Source of the DNA: Bacillota bacterium
GTDB taxonomy: Bacteria > Sysuimicrobiota > Sysuimicrobiia > Sysuimicrobiales > Segetimicrobiaceae
Direction of reading: 5' to 3'
DNA: 56,568 nt
Assembly (NCBI GenBank): GCA_021324975.1
Contig: JAJPIA010000049.1
Span: 1-56,568 of the forward strand
Shown: in pieces, positions 1-30,494 of the stretch
Position numbering within the stretch: position 1 is the stretch's first letter
Layout of the letters: the number at the start of each line of letters is the position of its first letter
The notes under the pieces: model-generated
Told to the model about the DNA's origin: nothing
Seen by the model: the letters and a program-made list of their open reading frames with translations, nothing else
Databases searched by the model: none
Program-made: the position numbers and the translations under genes

Positions 1-86
1 GGCTTCCGAACGGGCAAACCCGCCGTGAGGCGGGGACGCAAAGCCGCGGGACTTCCACCGAAGTCGGCCGGGCCGCCGAAGAGCCG
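1..86 (+). ncRNA. cyclic-di-GMP-I (GEMM) riboswitch aptamer
   Basis: The signature blocks of the GEMM-I aptamer are present in order: GGGCAAACC at 12-20, a P2 hairpin closed by a GTGA tetraloop (about 20-34), GGACGCAAAGCC at 33-44, a P3 hairpin GACTTC/GAAGTC around CACC (50-65), and the conserved 3' block CCGGGCCGCCGAA at 68-80. P1 can form between 3-6 (CTTC) and 78-81 (GAAG), extended by GGC 1-3 with GCC 83-85. The aptamer is therefore complete and begins at the window edge. The first base of the GGG is G, which favours c-di-GMP over cGAMP, with limited certainty. No intrinsic terminator follows, and a ribosome binding site lies 16 bases past P1, so control is probably translational. It controls the CAP-domain gene at 116. 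Confidence 0.88.
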
Positions 87-23157: not shown

Positions 23158-24408
23158 ATGGCGACGGCCGGCGAGGGAGGCGTGGACCGCGGGGTGGAGC
23201 GCGCCGTCGACGCGGCGCTGGCCGCGATCGACGACCGGTATCTCATAGACCTGGCGCGGCGCCTCGTTGCGGTGCCGAGTGTGTTTCGCCCGGGCGAGCC
23301 CGGCGAAGCGCCGGCGGCGGCCCTCGTCGAGCGCGAACTGCGCGCGCTCGACCTCCACGTGACCGTCGAGGAGGCTGCGCCCGGCCGCCCCAACGTCGTC
23401 GCGGACTGGCAGGGCTCCGTGGCCGCTCCGGTGCTCATCTTCGAAGGGCACACCGACGTCGTCACCGAGGGCGATCCCGCGCAGTGGTCCGTGCCGCCGT
23501 TCGCCGGCATCGTTCGCGACGGCCGGCTCCACGGGCGCGGGGCGGCGGACATGAAGGGCGGCATCGCGGCGGCGATCACGGCGGTGCGCGCGCTCCGGGA
23601 GGCGGGGGTGCGGCTCGGGGGAGTGGTGCGGCTCGCCTTGGTCGCTGACGAGGAAGGCATGATGCTCGGCATCAAGGCGTTCGTCCGGAACGGCTGGGCG
23701 AACGGTGCGCTCGGCGCCATCATCTGCGAGCCCGAGGCCAACCGGCCGTGTCTCGTGCAAAAGGGCGCCGTCCGGGCGGCGGTTCGGTTTCATGGCCGTA
23801 TGGCGCACGGCGCGATGCCGCGGAGCGGGATCAACCCGATCCCGGCGGCGGCCGCCCTGATCGGGGAAGCGGCGGAGCTCCAACGGGCGTACGTCGCGCG
23901 GCACGGAGCGCACCCGCTGCTCGGCGAACCCAGCGTGACGCCGACCGTGTGCCGCGCCGGCGATCTCGCGCAACTCAACGTCGTGCACGCCGACGCGCTC
24001 GTGGCGCTGGACATCCGGACGATTCCGGGCCAAGTACACGAGACGATCCGCGCCGATTTGAGCGATGCGGTCGAGCGCGCCGTCGCGAGGGTGCCGGGCT
24101 GCCGCGGTACCGTGGAGATCGTCGAGGAGCGGCCCTGGACGGAAACGTCGCCCGACGCAGCCGTGGCCCGCGCGGTCGAGCGGGCGTGCGAACGGGTGCA
24201 GGGTCGCCGTCCGGATCCCGGGGGCGTGCCGGGGGCCACGGACGGCACGTTTCTTCACGCCTGGGCCGGCGTACCGATCGTGACGATCGGGCCGGGCGAC
24301 GTGACGATCCCGCACCAGGTGGATGAGTTCGTGGGGCTGGACGCGCTCGGCGAAGCCGCGCGCATCTACGCGGCCGCCGCGTGCTATTGCCTCGGCATCC
24401 GGCCGTGA
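23158..24408 (+). CDS. M20 family metallohydrolase (ArgE/DapE/CPG2 type)
   Basis: 416 residues. Di-zinc site motifs are present: 'FEGHTDVV' near 90-97, 'GRGAADMKGG' near 124-132 and 'VADEEGMML' near 160-168. The dimerisation domain ('RPCLVQKGAVRAAVRFHGRMAHGAMP') follows and the last ligand lies in 'TIPHQVDEF'. It cleaves N-acyl amino acids or small peptides. ATG 23158 is used; GTG 23146 would add four residues. Its last base pairs overlap the GTG of the first ECF ATPase (GTGA), tying it to the transporter operon. Confidence 0.88.
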   Translation: MATAGEGGVDRGVERAVDAALAAIDDRYLIDLARRLVAVPSVFRPGEPGEAPAAALVERELRALDLHVTVEEAAPGRPNVVADWQGSVAAPVLIFEGHTDVVTEGDPAQWSVPPFAGIVRDGRLHGRGAADMKGGIAAAITAVRALREAGVRLGGVVRLALVADEEGMMLGIKAFVRNGWANGALGAIICEPEANRPCLVQKGAVRAAVRFHGRMAHGAMPRSGINPIPAAAALIGEAAELQRAYVARHGAHPLLGEPSVTPTVCRAGDLAQLNVVHADALVALDIRTIPGQVHETIRADLSDAVERAVARVPGCRGTVEIVEERPWTETSPDAAVARAVERACERVQGRRPDPGGVPGATDGTFLHAWAGVPIVTIGPGDVTIPHQVDEFVGLDALGEAARIYAAAACYCLGIRP

Positions 24409-25247
24409 TCGGCGAGCCGCTCATCGTCTGCGACGGCGTGGAATACGGCTACGGCGAGGCCCAGGACGGCCTCGCCCTGCGGGGCGTCTCGCTGCAGGTT
24501 TCGGCCGGCGAGCACGTTGCCATCATCGGTCCGAACGGTTCGGGCAAATCCACGCTCGCCCGCCACCTCAACGGCCTCCTGCGCCCGTGCGCCGGCACGG
24601 TGCGGATCCGGGGGATGGACACGCGCGATCCGGCGCACACCCGCTACATCCGCCAGACGGTGGGCATGGTCTTTCAGCATCCCGACAGTCAGATGGTGGC
24701 GACCGTCGTCGAGGAAGACGTCGCCTTTGGTCCCGAAAATCTCGGCGTGCCACACGCCGAGCTCCACACGCGGGTTCGCGAGGCGCTGGAGTTTGTGGAG
24801 ATGTGGGACTATCGCGACCGGCCGCCGCACCTGCTCTCGGCCGGCCAAAAGCAGCGCGTGGCCATCGCGGCGGTGCTGGCCATGCGGCCGGCGTGCATCG
24901 TCTTGGACGAAGCCACCTCGCTGCTCGATCCCCGCGGCCGCGCGGATCTGGGGCGTCTCGTTGCCGGCCTGCGGCGCCAGGGGACGGCCATCGTGTCGAT
25001 CACGCATCTCATGGACGAGGCCGCCGTCGCCGACCGCGTCGTCGTGCTCGGGGGCGGATTGGTCGTCGCGGCAGGGCCCCCGCGCGACGTGTTCGGGGAC
25101 GCCGAACGCCTCGCCGTGCTCGGCCTGGACCTGCCGGCGGCGACCGCGCTCGCGCTTCGCGTGCGGCGTGAGATTCCCGATTTTCCGGTAGATCTCATGA
25201 GCGTCGACGAGATCGTCGATGCCGTGGCCGGCCGCGCCGCCTCATGA
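24405..25247 (+). CDS. ecfA1: ECF transporter ATPase A1
   Basis: 280 residues. Walker A 'GPNGSGKST' near 44-52, the Q-loop 'GMVFQHPDSQMVATVVEEDVAFGPEN' hallmark of CbiO/EcfA, signature 'LSAGQKQR', Walker B 'CIVLDEAT', and a His-loop 'SITHLM'. As the first of two ATPases it would form the asymmetric EcfA1-A2 dimer that drives vitamin uptake. GTG 24405 overlaps the upstream stop by 4 bp and its stop overlaps the next ATG by 4 bp. Confidence 0.92.
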   Translation: MIGEPLIVCDGVEYGYGEAQDGLALRGVSLQVSAGEHVAIIGPNGSGKSTLARHLNGLLRPCAGTVRIRGMDTRDPAHTRYIRQTVGMVFQHPDSQMVATVVEEDVAFGPENLGVPHAELHTRVREALEFVEMWDYRDRPPHLLSAGQKQRVAIAAVLAMRPACIVLDEATSLLDPRGRADLGRLVAGLRRQGTAIVSITHLMDEAAVADRVVVLGGGLVVAAGPPRDVFGDAERLAVLGLDLPAATALALRVRREIPDFPVDLMSVDEIVDAVAGRAAS

Positions 25248-26167
25248 CGGCGTCCCACGGGGTGACGTCCGCCGTCGGCGCGCGCGCCGCGACCGGCCGG
25301 GCGGACGAGGCGCTCATCCGCGTCGAGGACCTGTGGCACACGTACATGGCCGGCACCCCGTTTGCGCAGGCTGCGCTCCGCGGCGTGACGATGTACGTGT
25401 GCCCGGGCGAGGTTGTGGGCGTGATCGGGCACACCGGGTCCGGGAAGTCCACCCTGATTCAATACCTCAATGGGCTGCTCCGTCCGAGCCGCGGCCGCGT
25501 CGTGGTGGCCGGGTACGAGGTGGGGCGCTCGAACTCCGGCATCGAGGCGGTCCGGCGGCTCGTCGGGGTCGCGTTTCAGGACCCTGAGGACCAGGTGTTC
25601 GAGCCGCTCGTCGGCGACGACGTCGCGTACGGGCCGCGCCAGCTCGGCCTCGCGGTGGACGAGCTCCGGGCGCGCGTCCGATGGGCGATGGAGGCGGTCG
25701 GGCTGCCGTTCGACGCGTTCAAGGACCGCTACACCTATACGCTGAGCGGTGGCGAGCTGCGCAGGACGGCGCTTGCCGGCGTGCTGGCGATGCGGCCGCG
25801 GGTGCTCGTGCTGGACGAACCGACCGCCGGCCTCGATCCCGTGACGCGCTCGGATGTGAGGGAGCGGCTCCTGACCCTGTGCCGCCGGGACGGGTTGACG
25901 CTGGTGCTCGTGTCACACGATATGGACGAGATCGCCGGCCTCGCCGACCGCGTCTACGTGCTGCACGCCGGCGCGGTGGTCGCCTCCGGCCCGCCGCGGG
26001 AGGTATTCGCGCGCCCCGACGCGCTCGCTCCGTACGGCCTGCTCCCGCCGTATCCTACCCAGGTGTGCATGCGGCTCCGGGCGCGCGGCATCCCGGTGCG
26101 CGGCGACGCGCTGACAATCGAGGAAGCCGGAGCGGCGATCGCGGCGGCGCTTCGGGCAACCCGGTGA
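25244..26167 (+). CDS. ecfA2: ECF transporter ATPase A2
   Basis: 307 residues. Walker A 'GHTGSGKST' near 68-76, Q-loop 'GVAFQDPEDQVFEPLVGDDVAYGP', signature 'LSGGELRR', Walker B 'VLVLDEPTAGLDP' and 'LVSHDMDE'. The N-terminal 20 residues before 'IRVEDLW' look extra; a shorter start at a later codon is possible but ATG 25244 gives the ATGA coupling. It pairs with EcfA1 and binds the coupling helices of EcfT (next gene, 4-bp overlap). Confidence 0.92.
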   Translation: MTASHGVTSAVGARAATGRADEALIRVEDLWHTYMAGTPFAQAALRGVTMYVCPGEVVGVIGHTGSGKSTLIQYLNGLLRPSRGRVVVAGYEVGRSNSGIEAVRRLVGVAFQDPEDQVFEPLVGDDVAYGPRQLGLAVDELRARVRWAMEAVGLPFDAFKDRYTYTLSGGELRRTALAGVLAMRPRVLVLDEPTAGLDPVTRSDVRERLLTLCRRDGLTLVLVSHDMDEIAGLADRVYVLHAGAVVASGPPREVFARPDALAPYGLLPPYPTQVCMRLRARGIPVRGDALTIEEAGAAIAAALRATR

Positions 26168-27015
26168 ACGAGTTCGAGCTGCTGCGCAACATCACGATCG
26201 GTCAATATCTGCCGGCCGATTCGTATCTCCACCGGCTGGATCCCCGGGCGAAGATCCTCGCCGCGATCTTGGTGATCGCAGCGGTCACCTTCACGCCGAG
26301 CCTCGTCGGGAACGCGTGCCTGCTCGCGGCGGCCCTGGCGCTCGTGCGGGTCGGCCGCATCCCGCTCGCGTACGCGCTGCGGGGTCTCGTGCCGGCGGTG
26401 CCGCTCCTCGTCCTCCTCGCCGTGATGCAGCTCTTGTTCTTCGGCCGCAACTACGACCCGACGAGCTCCGTGGTGTTTCAGTGGCGCTGGCTTGCCGTCA
26501 CGATCGTCGTCACGGCGGCGGTCCTCAAGCTGGTGGTCGTGTCGGCCGCGCGTTTCATCGAGTTGCTGCTCGTGACCAGCGTGTTCACGCTGTCCACGAA
26601 GACGACCGAGTTGACGCTGGGCATCGAGAGCCTGCTGCGCCCGTTCCGGCGGCTGCGCGTGCCTGCGCACGAGCTTGCCCTCGTCGTAACGATCGCCGTG
26701 CGATTCGTGCCGACCCTCGCGCTCGAGGCAGAGCGGCTGATGAAGGCCCAGGCTTCCCGGGGCGGCCGGTTCGGCGGCGGCCGGTGGCATTTCGTTACCC
26801 GCGTGCGCCAGCTGCTGCCCATTCTCGTGCCGTTGGTGACCTACGCGCTTCGGCGCGGCGAAGAGCTCATCGTCGCCATGGAGGCGCGGGCGTACACAGG
26901 CGGCACGGGGCGGACGGCCTACACCGTCCTGGCGAGCGGGCCCGGCGACTGGCTCGCCGTCTGCATCGCGGCCGCCTTTCTCGCGGCTATGCTGCTGGCG
27001 CCGTTTCCCGCGTGA
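26164..27015 (+). CDS. ecfT: ECF transporter membrane component T
   Basis: 283 residues. Five to six membrane segments, the CbiQ/EcfT start 'SYLHRLDPRAKILAA', and two coupling motifs: the 'AQASRGGR' helix (near 196-203) and 'AMEARAYTGG' near 238, equivalent to the paired Ala-Arg-Gly/Ala signatures that dock into the ATPases. GTG 26164 overlaps the EcfA2 stop by 4 bp. It transmits ATP-driven toppling to the substrate-binding S component. Confidence 0.93.
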   Translation: MNEFELLRNITIGQYLPADSYLHRLDPRAKILAAILVIAAVTFTPSLVGNACLLAAALALVRVGRIPLAYALRGLVPAVPLLVLLAVMQLLFFGRNYDPTSSVVFQWRWLAVTIVVTAAVLKLVVVSAARFIELLLVTSVFTLSTKTTELTLGIESLLRPFRRLRVPAHELALVVTIAVRFVPTLALEAERLMKAQASRGGRFGGGRWHFVTRVRQLLPILVPLVTYALRRGEELIVAMEARAYTGGTGRTAYTVLASGPGDWLAVCIAAAFLAAMLLAPFPA

Positions 27016-27105
27016 CCGGGGCAGGGGGGCCGCCAGCGTCCGGGGAATCCCGTGGTGCGGTTTGCGTTCGGAACGCATCGGCCGGGCGAAAAAGGGGGGC
27101 GATCC

Positions 27106-27657
27106 ATGCAGGACGCGGGACGGGGTGCTCTCTCCATCCGAGGGATCGTGATCTCCGCGGTGCTCGCGGCCGTCGCGATCCTTCTCGGCGCGACGCGGGT
27201 CGGATTTATCCCGACACCGACGGGCATCGCGGCGACGATCATGCACGTGCCGGCGATCATCGGCGGCGTCCTGGAGGGCCCGGTCGTGGGCGCGATCATC
27301 GGCACGATCTTCGGCGTCTACAGTTTCTTCTACGCGACCGTGCCGATGTTCAAAGACCCCATCGTCGCGATCGCGCCGCGCATCTTCATCGGCATCTTCG
27401 CCGCGTGGACGTACTGGTCGCTGCGGCGCATGAGCGAGTTGTGGGCCATCGTGCTGGCCGCGATCGTCGGCACCGCGACGAACACCGTGCTGGTCCTGGG
27501 CTTCGGAGTGGCGCGGCACTATCTGCCGGCCAAGGTGGCGTGGGTGGTTGGGATCACCCACGGGATCCCCGAGGTCGTCGTCGCGGTGATCCTCTCGGTG
27601 GCGGTGCTGCTCCCCTGGAAACGGGCGCACCGAGGCCAGGCCCGCGCGCGCGTCTGA
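27106..27657 (+). CDS. ECF transporter substrate-binding S component
   Basis: 183 residues, about five or six membrane segments. 'GATRVGFIPTPTGIAATIMHVPAIIGGVLEGPVVG' followed by 'GTIFGVYSF' matches the PF12822-type ECF S proteins (pantothenate/cobalamin-related group), which bind the vitamin. The substrate cannot be set from sequence. ATG 27106 follows GGGGGGCG. With A1, A2 and T directly upstream the set is a complete group-I-like dedicated transporter. Its linkage to an aldehyde dehydrogenase and an M20 amidase hints that the substrate may be a precursor those enzymes process. Confidence 0.85.
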   Translation: MQDAGRGALSIRGIVISAVLAAVAILLGATRVGFIPTPTGIAATIMHVPAIIGGVLEGPVVGAIIGTIFGVYSFFYATVPMFKDPIVAIAPRIFIGIFAAWTYWSLRRMSELWAIVLAAIVGTATNTVLVLGFGVARHYLPAKVAWVVGITHGIPEVVVAVILSVAVLLPWKRAHRGQARARV

Positions 27658-27755
27658 ACCGACCGACGATAGCGCTGGTGCTTCATCTGGTATGTGCGAC
27701 GAGGGTAGACGGGGCCGCCCGGCGCCAGCCCTTGCCGAATTAATGCGATGACGCG

Positions 27756-28256
27756 CTAGCGGGCGCGCGCGTTCTCTGCGGGGTAGCCTGCGACCCGGCG
27801 GAGCGCGAGGTGGACGGGCCACATCACGGGGACGCCCAGGACGATCAGCAGGAGCTCGCTGGCGAGGATCGGCAGCGCGATCGGCTCCAACGGCGCGTGC
27901 AGGACCGAGGACAACATCGTCGAGACCGCGGCGGCCGTCACGACCGCGTAGACGGCGGCGCCGAGATAGGCGTTGACCCGGCCGGCCCGCCAGCAGAGCC
28001 ACGCGCCCACCAGGTTGGCGCACGGCATCCAGACGAGCTCCCAGTACCACGGCCACGGGCTGCCGAGGTTGCCCAGCAGATTGCCGAGGACAAACGCCGG
28101 GATGAGATCGGGTTCCCAGATCACGAGCGGCTTCAGCGTCTCCGCGAACCGCAGTTGCAGCGGGCCGTAGGAGGCCGGGGCGAGCGCTAACGTGGTCGCC
28201 GCGTAAGCCGCCGCGACGACCCCGACGTAGGCAACTTTGACCGCCGGCCGCCTCAC
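27756..28256 (-). CDS. queT: QueT-family queuosine precursor transporter
   Basis: 166 residues, about five membrane helices. The N-terminal pattern 'AAYAATTLALAPASYGPLQLRFAE' and 'NLLGNLGSPWPWYWEL'-like block (landmarks near 10-70) are those of PF06177/QueT S components that import queuosine precursors (preQ0, preQ1 or queuine), normally using an ECF module. GTG 28256 overlaps the queF stop by GTGA, so queF-queT is one transcript. The ECF A1-A2-T genes 740 bp away could energise it as well as their own S protein; this is inference. Confidence 0.85.
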   Translation of the reverse strand: MRRPAVKVAYVGVVAAAYAATTLALAPASYGPLQLRFAETLKPLVIWEPDLIPAFVLGNLLGNLGSPWPWYWELVWMPCANLVGAWLCWRAGRVNAYLGAAVYAVVTAAAVSTMLSSVLHAPLEPIALPILASELLLIVLGVPVMWPVHLALRRVAGYPAENARAR

Positions 28257-28708
28257 GAGGTCACGCCCGGCCACCGGATCTTGACGACGGTGTGGACCCC
28301 TCCGCGGACGCGGTAGTCGAGCTCCAACTCCATCCACGAGGGGGCGCAGGCGGTCACGAGATCCCCCATGATGCGATTCGCCGCATGCTCCTGGTAGATG
28401 CCGACGTTCCGGTAGGTGAGCAGGTAGTATTTGAACGAGCGCAGCTCCAGGACCCGATCGATCGGGAGATAGCGTATGCGGATGGTCCCGAAGTCGGGCA
28501 GGCCGGACCACGGGCAGACGGCGGTGAACTCGTCGGTTGAGATTTCGATCGTGGCCGGAGAACCGGGATACTCATAGGGGAACGTTTCCAGGACGTCGGG
28601 CCGCACCGACGACGGTGGCCGGATCTCGAGGTCTGGCCGGTCGGTGCCGGCCTCCGCCGCGGGGCCGTGGGCTACGGCGATGCGGGATTCCTCTGGCACG
28701 TCGGGCAC
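28253..28708 (-). CDS. queF: NADPH-dependent preQ0 reductase QueF
   Basis: 151 residues of the short (unimodular) QueF type. Catalytic Cys65 and Asp72 lie in 'TAVCPWSGLPDFG', and 'LELRSFKYYLLTYRN' and 'YQEHAANRI' carry the substrate-binding Glu and His. It reduces 7-cyano-7-deazaguanine to preQ1 for queuosine in tRNA. GAGGAG stands about 12 bases before GTG 28708. No queC, queD or queE are in the window, consistent with dependence on imported precursor through the adjacent QueT. No preQ1 riboswitch was found in the short leader. Confidence 0.95.
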   Translation of the reverse strand: MPDVPEESRIAVAHGPAAEAGTDRPDLEIRPPSSVRPDVLETFPYEYPGSPATIEISTDEFTAVCPWSGLPDFGTIRIRYLPIDRVLELRSFKYYLLTYRNVGIYQEHAANRIMGDLVTACAPSWMELELDYRVRGGVHTVVKIRWPGVTS

Positions 28709-28732: not shown

Positions 28733-28761
28733 TTGAACCCGTTGGCGTTGTATGGTAAGAT
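28733..28761 (+). promoter_or_regulatory. sigma-70-type promoter for the DEAD-like gene
   Basis: TTGAAC (28733-28738), a spacer of exactly 17, then TAAGAT (28756-28761). Transcription would start near 28768, giving a leader of about 118 bases. On the opposite strand the same AT-rich block may hold the queF promoter, so the two would overlap. Confidence 0.6.
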
Positions 28762-28885
28762 ATTAGCAGAAAGCATGTTCAATCGCGTCCTTTGACGGCG
28801 GGAGGGCGACGCGCTCTCCCGTTCTGCGTGCCGCCCAGATCGCTGCGGGCGCACGACGCAAAACCCACGAGGGGCGTGTGATCAC

Positions 28886-29581
28886 ATGGCGGTGGAGTCT
28901 CGCACGGCCGGATTTTCCGGTCTGGTGGATGCACGGATTCAGCGGGCCATCCAGGAGATTGGATGGGCGGCACCGACCCCGATCGAGGCGCAGGTGATCC
29001 CGAGCCTTACGATCGGGAGAGACCTCGTCGGTCAGGCCGACCCTGGCTCGCGCACGACGGCGGCATTTGGGATCCCCATGCTGCAGCGCCTCGACCCGCG
29101 GAGCAAGGCGGTCCAAGGCCTGGTGCTAGCCCCGACACGGGAGCAGGCCAGGCGCGTGACGAGCGACCTGTCCAAGCTGGGGGTCCACACCCGGCTGCGA
29201 ATCGTCGCCGTCTACGGCGGCGAGCCTATGGCGCGCCAGACGCAGCGCCTGCGCGAAAAGCCGCACATCGTGGTGGGGACCCCGGCGCGCGTGCTGGAGC
29301 ACCTGGGCAAGGGGACGCTGACGCTTCGCAGCGTGCACATGCTCGTGCTCGACGACGCGGACCGGATGCTCAAGATGGGGCTGCGATCCGAGGTCGAGCA
29401 GATCCTCGTCCGGACGCCATCCACGCGGCAGACCGCCCTGTTTTCGGCCACCCTCCCGGACCCGATCCGCGCCATGGTCGGCCGGTATCTGCGCAATCCG
29501 ATCTGGGTGACGCCTGGTCCCGCGAACGGCGCGCTCTTTCAGGACGCGCAGCGGCGAAACCCGCGCACGGCCGTGTCGTAA
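28886..29581 (+). CDS. truncated, degenerate DEAD-box protein
   Basis: 231 residues covering only the first RecA domain of a DEAD-box helicase. Recognisable parts: aromatic and Q-motif region ('PTPIEAQVIP', Gln35), motif Ia 'PTRE' (83-86), 'GG', motif Ib 'TPAR' (132-135) and motif III 'SAT' (187-189). Motif I reads ADPGSRTT (51-58) in place of AxTGxGKT, so the ATP-binding lysine is replaced by threonine, and motif II reads DDAD (156-159) instead of DEAD. The second RecA domain is absent, and only about 90 bp separate it from the next gene, so this is not a frameshift. It probably cannot hydrolyse ATP and may serve as an RNA- or protein-binding module. Confidence 0.85.
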   Translation: MAVESRTAGFSGLVDARIQRAIQEIGWAAPTPIEAQVIPSLTIGRDLVGQADPGSRTTAAFGIPMLQRLDPRSKAVQGLVLAPTREQARRVTSDLSKLGVHTRLRIVAVYGGEPMARQTQRLREKPHIVVGTPARVLEHLGKGTLTLRSVHMLVLDDADRMLKMGLRSEVEQILVRTPSTRQTALFSATLPDPIRAMVGRYLRNPIWVTPGPANGALFQDAQRRNPRTAVS

Positions 29582-29672: not shown

Positions 29673-30494
29673 GTGGATGAACTGGTCTCGGAGGGCGATC
29701 GCTTCGGGTTCTGGCGGTTCGCCCGCCACGCATTTTTCACCGAGATCAACCGGTGGCTCGTCCAACAGGTCGCGCTGCTGGGTCCGCGCGTTGTCGATCT
29801 CGCGTGCGGCCCGGGCGCCATCACCGAGCTTATCCTGGCGACCGTCAAAGAGCGGAGCCGCCTGCTGATCTACGCCGTGGATCCATCGTTGACCGAACTG
29901 GACCGGGCCCGCCGCCGGATCGCGTCGGGCCTGGTTCGATTTATCCAGGGTGGCGCGGAGAACCTCAGCCGTCTGGTTCCGCAGGTCGACGTGGTCATCT
30001 TTTGCAATGCGATCCATCTCGTGGCGGACAAGAGCCGGGCCCTCGGTGAGATCCGCCAGGTCTTGGGGCCGGGCGGGACCCTCGCCTTCAACACCACCTA
30101 CTTCAAGGGATGCTACGTACCGGGGACGGAGCGGTTTTGGCGGTACTGGGCGCTTCGCGCGGCACAGTACCTGCGCGACCGCGGCATCCCCGTGCTGCGG
30201 GCCGCGAAGACGCCCGCGATGCGATGGTTCAGCCCGGAGGAGTACGGCGCGCTCGCGGCGTCCTCGGGTTTCGTCGGGGCGTCGTGGCAGCTCCATGAAG
30301 CCACGCTCTCGCCGGAGAGTCTCGAGGATATCGGGCAGTTTTCGATGTTCATCCAGGGCGCGCTGCCCGGCGTGCCACTCGAGTGCGGCGCCGAGGCGCT
30401 GCGCGAATCCGTGCGGGTGGCAATGGCGGACGCCAACCTCACGGGCGGCGTGCCACGATACTGGCTGCAGTTCATCGCGCACGCCCCCGTCTGA
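29673..30494 (+). CDS. SAM-dependent class I methyltransferase
   Basis: 273 residues. The SAM-binding motif I is 'VVDLACGPGAITE' near 34-46, an acidic motif II 'IYAVDPS' follows, then 'DVVIFCNAIHLV' (motif IV position) and 'VLGPGGTLAFNTT'. This is the methyltransferase-11/25 pattern for small molecules. The C-terminal 120 residues ('AMRWFSPEEYGALAASSGF') are as in ubiquinone/tocopherol-like methyltransferases. GTG 29673 follows GGGAGGAG by about 13 bases. Substrate unknown. It is transcribed from its own promoter between the DEAD-like gene and thrC. Confidence 0.82.
   Translation: MDELVSEGDRFGFWRFARHAFFTEINRWLVQQVALLGPRVVDLACGPGAITELILATVKERSRLLIYAVDPSLTELDRARRRIASGLVRFIQGGAENLSRLVPQVDVVIFCNAIHLVADKSRALGEIRQVLGPGGTLAFNTTYFKGCYVPGTERFWRYWALRAAQYLRDRGIPVLRAAKTPAMRWFSPEEYGALAASSGFVGASWQLHEATLSPESLEDIGQFSMFIQGALPGVPLECGAEALRESVRVAMADANLTGGVPRYWLQFIAHAPV

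Follow-up and report, generated by a model that had tools for sequence, protein, structure and literature searches.

The window, a stretch of 56,568 nucleotides that makes up the whole of contig C53, belongs to a genome of 4.43 Mb assembled in 144 contigs. An open reading frame in this window starts with ATG at 28886 and ends with TAA at 29579-29581, encoding a protein of 231 residues, hereafter psDEAD. The earlier note on this DNA had described a complete and well-framed gene, and the coordinates, frame and length it gave are exact. The features of the locus are listed below, with the evidence in parentheses.

28253..28708, minus strand: queF (preQ1 synthase), the divergent neighbour of psDEAD (NCBIfam match and neighbourhood)
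28733..28761, plus strand: promoter-like TTGAAC-N17-TAAGAT (pattern recurring upstream of orthologues)
28784..28866, plus strand: conserved, probably structured 5' leader, with a closing stem GCGUC/GACGC, a GC-rich hairpin and a second stem of variable length (alignment, structure comparison)
28886..29581, plus strand: psDEAD, a single RecA1-domain pseudo-DEAD-box protein of 231 aa (open reading frame, profile match, orthologues, structure model)
29036..29059, plus strand: degenerate Walker A, residues 51-58 ADPGSRTT, GSGKT lost (GKT in 0 of 11 orthologues)
29351..29362, plus strand: degenerate motif II, residues 156-159 DDAD, DEAD lost (DDAD, DDTD or DAAD in orthologues)
29673..30494, plus strand: class I SAM-dependent methyltransferase directly downstream of psDEAD, with its own TATAAT-like element upstream (gene neighbourhood and genome comparison)

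The gene order ECF transporter genes, queT, queF, psDEAD, methyltransferase, thrC and DUF815 is kept in all 10 relatives examined, as far as their contigs or extracted stretches extend. The genes at 24381-28708 encode an ECF transporter (two ATPases, a CbiQ-type T and an S component) beside queT and queF, in an order conserved in the family; together they perhaps form a queuosine-precursor uptake and synthesis cluster. At the left end of the window (4-81, plus strand), a c-di-GMP-I-GGC riboswitch aptamer was found with 62.5 bits, just upstream of the open reading frame 131-718, whose product, judging by its residues, resembles a secreted CAP/SCP-type protein.

Residues 31-194 of psDEAD match the Pfam family DEAD (PF00270) with 130 bits against a cut-off of 26. 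The best NCBIfam model is that of CshA, the degradosome helicase, which gives 218 bits, far below its cut-off of 646 bits, and covers only positions 6-200 of 434. The Walker A lysine is lost from A51-D-P-G-S-R-T-T58 and motif II reads D156-D-A-D159. The last predicted strand is followed by 23 more residues and by no helicase C-terminal domain, and the next gene is that of the methyltransferase. All three losses had been read correctly in the earlier note, which had also held that motifs Q, Ia, Ib and III are kept. That claim stands for SAT, which is present here, but the Q position is occupied by Glu34 (PTPIE, also genus-wide), Ia reads PTREQ, Ib reads TPAR and SAT drifts in relatives. With regard to the DEAD-box family, psDEAD has the RecA1 fold and the domain-1 similarity, and lacks GxGK[ST], the DEAD glutamate and the second RecA domain. 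Because these three defining features fail, we would not class psDEAD as a helicase, and its sequence is strong reason to infer that it is neither an ATPase nor a helicase. It shows what would mark a pseudohelicase, namely a helicase fold that has lost its catalytic motifs and is under selection.

Of the 12 family genomes, 11 carry psDEAD, the copies in the relatives being 72-97% identical to that of the window; no orthologue was found in the 31 other genomes of the order. A profile built from 10 orthologues scored the 11 copies at 366-448 bits and everything else at no more than 245 bits over the 43 order genomes, which are the same 43 genomes as the phylum set. The genome without psDEAD, G010, is 64% complete and also misses the neighbouring methyltransferase, and the entire locus may simply be missing from the assembly. 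In the named collection, orthologues come from the MAGs 'Terrabacteria group bacterium ANGP1' and 'Bacillota bacterium Centralia_MAG_45'. Going by NCBI names and by PMC11604079, the phylum would be Candidatus Sysuimicrobiota and the family, one of uncultured soil bacteria, probably Segetimicrobiaceae. Examination of 44 of the best 80 loci in this collection revealed 3 orthologues. The other 41 loci combine GKT and a DEAD motif II with a second domain, save L117, whose contig ends ahead of that domain. Viral contigs scanned for phage carriage yielded 49 pattern matches, none encoding a psDEAD relative.

The earlier note had proposed to check the conservation of ADPGSRTT and DDAD. Both the Walker A lysine and the DEAD glutamate are lost in 11/11 orthologues, by differing changes: Walker A reads GSRTT, GDRTT, APRTT or GSART, and motif II reads DDAD, DDTD or DAAD. 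None of the 11 extends past domain 1 into a second RecA domain with motifs IV-VI. Relatives with an intact GKT and a C-terminal domain, which had been put forward as the sign of a recent decay in this genome, are therefore not found among the orthologues, and the description of psDEAD as a stable, single-domain, probably non-ATPase helicase relative agrees with these sequences. Ten of the 11 copies are intact, across four genera; these ten represent about three lineages within one family. The copy in G011 ends early, and tail-like residues in another frame indicate a missing stretch, which is due to decay or assembly.

A full-length, two-domain CshA-type helicase occurs together with psDEAD in 10 of the 12 family genomes, and domain 1 of this paralogue is about 50% identical to psDEAD. 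G010 has the two-domain helicase only; G005, which is 96% complete, has psDEAD, and no CshA-type two-domain helicase was found in it. As to a possible origin by duplication within the family, the psDEAD clade has a support of 100/100 on a branch of 0.72-0.74 in a tree of 50 chosen rows. AU tests, run without the row of G017, which was left out as long branches met, did not reject a grouping of psDEAD with the full-length helicases of the order (p 0.49) and nearly rejected one with those of the family itself (p 0.063).

A codon model fitted to the same 9 genomes gave psDEAD an omega of 0.026, the lowest of seven genes and a sign of strong purifying selection, on long codon trees near saturation that make the values rough and leave the ranking informative. 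The other values are 0.042 for the methyltransferase, 0.059 for thrC, 0.063 for queF, 0.064 for ecfT, 0.077 for ecfS and 0.085 for the full-length paralogue, whose rows were cut to domain 1 for the codon tests. The paired tests of omega, face identity and site rates leave out G005 (no paralogue) and G011 (shortened copy). Fourfold-degenerate sites of psDEAD are only 30-49% identical, and therefore the constraint acts on the protein; the same identity (0.30-0.49) rules out constraint on DNA or on an overlapping frame. A decaying pseudogene or an assembly artefact might be suspected from the loss of the catalytic residues and domain 2 and from the G011 copy without its end, but the low omega, the intact copies over four genera and the agreement of separate MAG assemblies speak against it, and we consider its probability negligible. 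Recent decay is ruled out by the orthologues and the omega, and as judged from sequence psDEAD is a stably kept protein and not a decaying leftover.

An AlphaFold model from 30 alignment rows shows one RecA domain with a pLDDT of 84.8 and a pTM of 0.82, the P-loop being of low confidence. The fold model depends on the full-length helicases in its alignment, since 4 orthologues alone gave a poor model with a pLDDT of 49.9. The nearest solved structures found by Foldseek are domain 1 of DEAD-box helicases, including CshA and Hera. The loops were split by the topology of the predicted model, and not from coordinates, into those after the strands, forming the catalytic face (motifs I, Ia, GG, Ib, II and III), and those before the strands, forming the opposite face. 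In the 9 genomes with both proteins, the mean pairwise identity of the catalytic-face loops (36 sites) is 0.68 in psDEAD versus 0.88 in the paralogue, whereas that of the opposite-face loops (42 sites) is 0.94 versus 0.56. A permutation test of this contrast found 0 of 20,000 as extreme. Maximum-likelihood site rates of psDEAD are 1.37 at the front and 0.68 at the back (p 1.3e-4), and those of the paralogue are 0.48 and 1.52 (p 9e-6); site rates of the two proteins are uncorrelated (rho 0.10). As assigned on the model, conservation in psDEAD is inverted: the catalytic face drifts and the back face is nearly frozen, the paralogue showing the reverse. Numbered as in the window protein, K74, V76, T102, K125, R148, L202 and N204 are among the residues that do not vary in psDEAD and never occur in the paralogue, while those invariant in the paralogue and variable in psDEAD include positions 53-57 (P-loop) and 84-88 (Ia), G111, A134, D157 and SAT 187-189.

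Three other readings of the protein were weighed. psDEAD might be an RNA chaperone that uses the ordinary RNA surface of DEAD-box domain 1, made of motifs Ia, GG and Ib. Its domain is basic, TP-R of Ib is invariant in the orthologues and Arg85 of Ia is nearly so. However, Ia reads PTREQ, PNRDA or PSKDL, the first Gly of GG is G, T or E, and the Gly of Ib is A, G, S or N, while the opposite face is frozen, making this reading unlikely. Similarly unlikely, if not slightly more so, is a role beside the cell's own full-length CshA-type helicase, as its regulatory or dominant-negative partner. The co-occurrence of both genes and the similarity of psDEAD to helicase domain 1 would suit such a partner, but it is the cleft face, against which a second RecA domain would pack, that drifts, and G005 keeps psDEAD with no full-length helicase, so that an obligate dependence on this helicase is unlikely. 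The earlier note had suggested an RNA chaperone or a partner of a real helicase; this survives only in part, given the drift of the canonical RNA surface and the G005 case, and RNA binding by another face of psDEAD is possible. Thirdly, an unusual P-loop could bind nucleotide without hydrolysis and act as a nucleotide-dependent switch, given that in 11/11 copies the Walker Lys is replaced by Thr or Arg and motif II retains both Asp residues. Against this, the P-loop varies by sublineage (the four variants given above) and is poorly modelled, and one genus has lost motif Q; we regard a switch as very unlikely.

The net charge of the whole domain is +10 to +13 in psDEAD versus +2 to +6 in the paralogue. 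On the back face the two are about equal (+6 in psDEAD, +4 to +7 in the paralogue), and a newly gained basic patch there is unsupported.

The class I methyltransferase is conserved across the phylum, in 11 family genomes and in 24 of the 31 others, and is under strong selection. Its gene adjoins that of psDEAD in 11/11 genomes, and among the seven genes only psDEAD has a lower omega, as would fit a psDEAD that serves as an RNA- or substrate-presenting subunit of this enzyme. However, the 24 other order genomes with the enzyme are all without psDEAD, and in most genomes a TATAAT-like element lies ahead of the methyltransferase gene. At the 12 psDEAD-less loci examined, the gene is not beside queF or thrC. 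A dependence of psDEAD on the methyltransferase is possible and not needed, and a subunit role seems quite improbable.

The earlier note had also given psDEAD its own promoter. The pattern TTGA[AC]C-N17-TA[AGC][AG]AT lies upstream of 9 of the 11 orthologues, in favour of this claim, but a consensus promoter scan found none, the site in the window scoring under its threshold. A leader of roughly 120-160 nt separates the promoter-like site from the start codon. Its core shows strong conservation in 8 of the 11 genomes, whereas the sequences of G004, G007 and G009 have diverged. The three-helix structure pairs 91% of cells, compared to 37-64% when slid. Covariation in the leader is no greater than in shuffles, partly because its sequence hardly varies. 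A covariance model found a single copy in each of 9 of the 12 genomes, always at psDEAD; it was built from 8 of these, so that the match in G007 (39 bits) is independent. The model missed G004 and G009, and G010 is without the locus. A search of Rfam gave no match to the leader, which, judging by these alignments, is a candidate new cis-regulatory RNA found in these genomes only at the psDEAD gene.

We propose that psDEAD is a bacterial non-ATPase pseudohelicase re-used as a back-face binding or scaffold module, with its expression controlled via the leader, and give this reading a probability of roughly 55%. The protein would be a stand-alone CshA-type RecA1 domain without normal ATP binding, hydrolysis or RNA unwinding. 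The back face would consist of the loops before strands 1-7 (R45-D46, L69-Q77, T102-R105, K125-H127, T144-V150, T177-R181 and L202-P205), and its invariance suggests a docking surface for one conserved macromolecule, since a frozen face points to a single conserved partner. The likeliest class of partner would be RNA or an RNP, such as the ribosome, RNA polymerase or an RNA-decay complex, which is favoured because of the family origin, the net charge of +10 to +13 and the leader RNA. The leader would control psDEAD synthesis, perhaps by feedback.

Similar to domain 1 of CshA-type helicases (PDB 6aib, 5gju and 5ivl), the psDEAD model has a TM-score of 0.81-0.83 by query length, at 39-46% identity; unlike them, it has no second RecA domain, GKT or DEAD, and its conserved face is the opposite one. 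Few helicase pseudoenzymes have been described, and the closest cases found are Utp25 and PriA of Deinococcus radiodurans. Utp25/Def is a pseudohelicase of the eukaryotic SSU processome, derived from DEAD-box proteins, with the catalytic motifs lost and a non-enzymatic role as a component; it keeps two RecA-like domains, has a disordered N-terminal part and is essential in ribosome assembly (PMC9539457). It resembles psDEAD in its DEAD-box origin, the loss of catalytic motifs and its retention, whereas psDEAD is bacterial and has one domain and no assigned process. PriA of D. radiodurans is a bacterial pseudohelicase that has lost its motifs throughout a lineage and retained a binding role (PMC4504706). 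This relative of a DNA helicase takes the place of the active enzyme (PMC4504706), whereas psDEAD comes from the RNA helicase family and is an additional protein, with one domain. No one-domain bacterial DEAD-box pseudohelicase was found in the literature searched. psDEAD would be such a bacterial case, accompanied in most of its genomes by an active paralogue and with its conservation shifted to the face opposite the catalytic one. It would offer a clean natural experiment on the conversion of an ATPase domain into a scaffold, with defined residues to probe.

A narrower form of the proposal would make psDEAD a novel bacterial RNP protein, whose back face recognises a structured RNA or RNP and which regulates itself via the leader, as in ribosomal-protein leaders; we advance it only tentatively. 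No 16S rRNA was found in the 12 family genomes. The comparison for rRNA mimicry covered partial 23S rRNA from 2 of the 12 genomes, to which the leader gave matches of up to 18 bases, no better than chance, and on this comparison a leader that mimics 23S rRNA was not retained as a candidate. The 23S rRNA match in G009 (L227 and L228, contig C58, 13325-14859) is interrupted between model positions 2035 and 2049. Its 5' piece takes up 925 bases where the model has about 345 positions, possibly reflecting an insertion or an intron.
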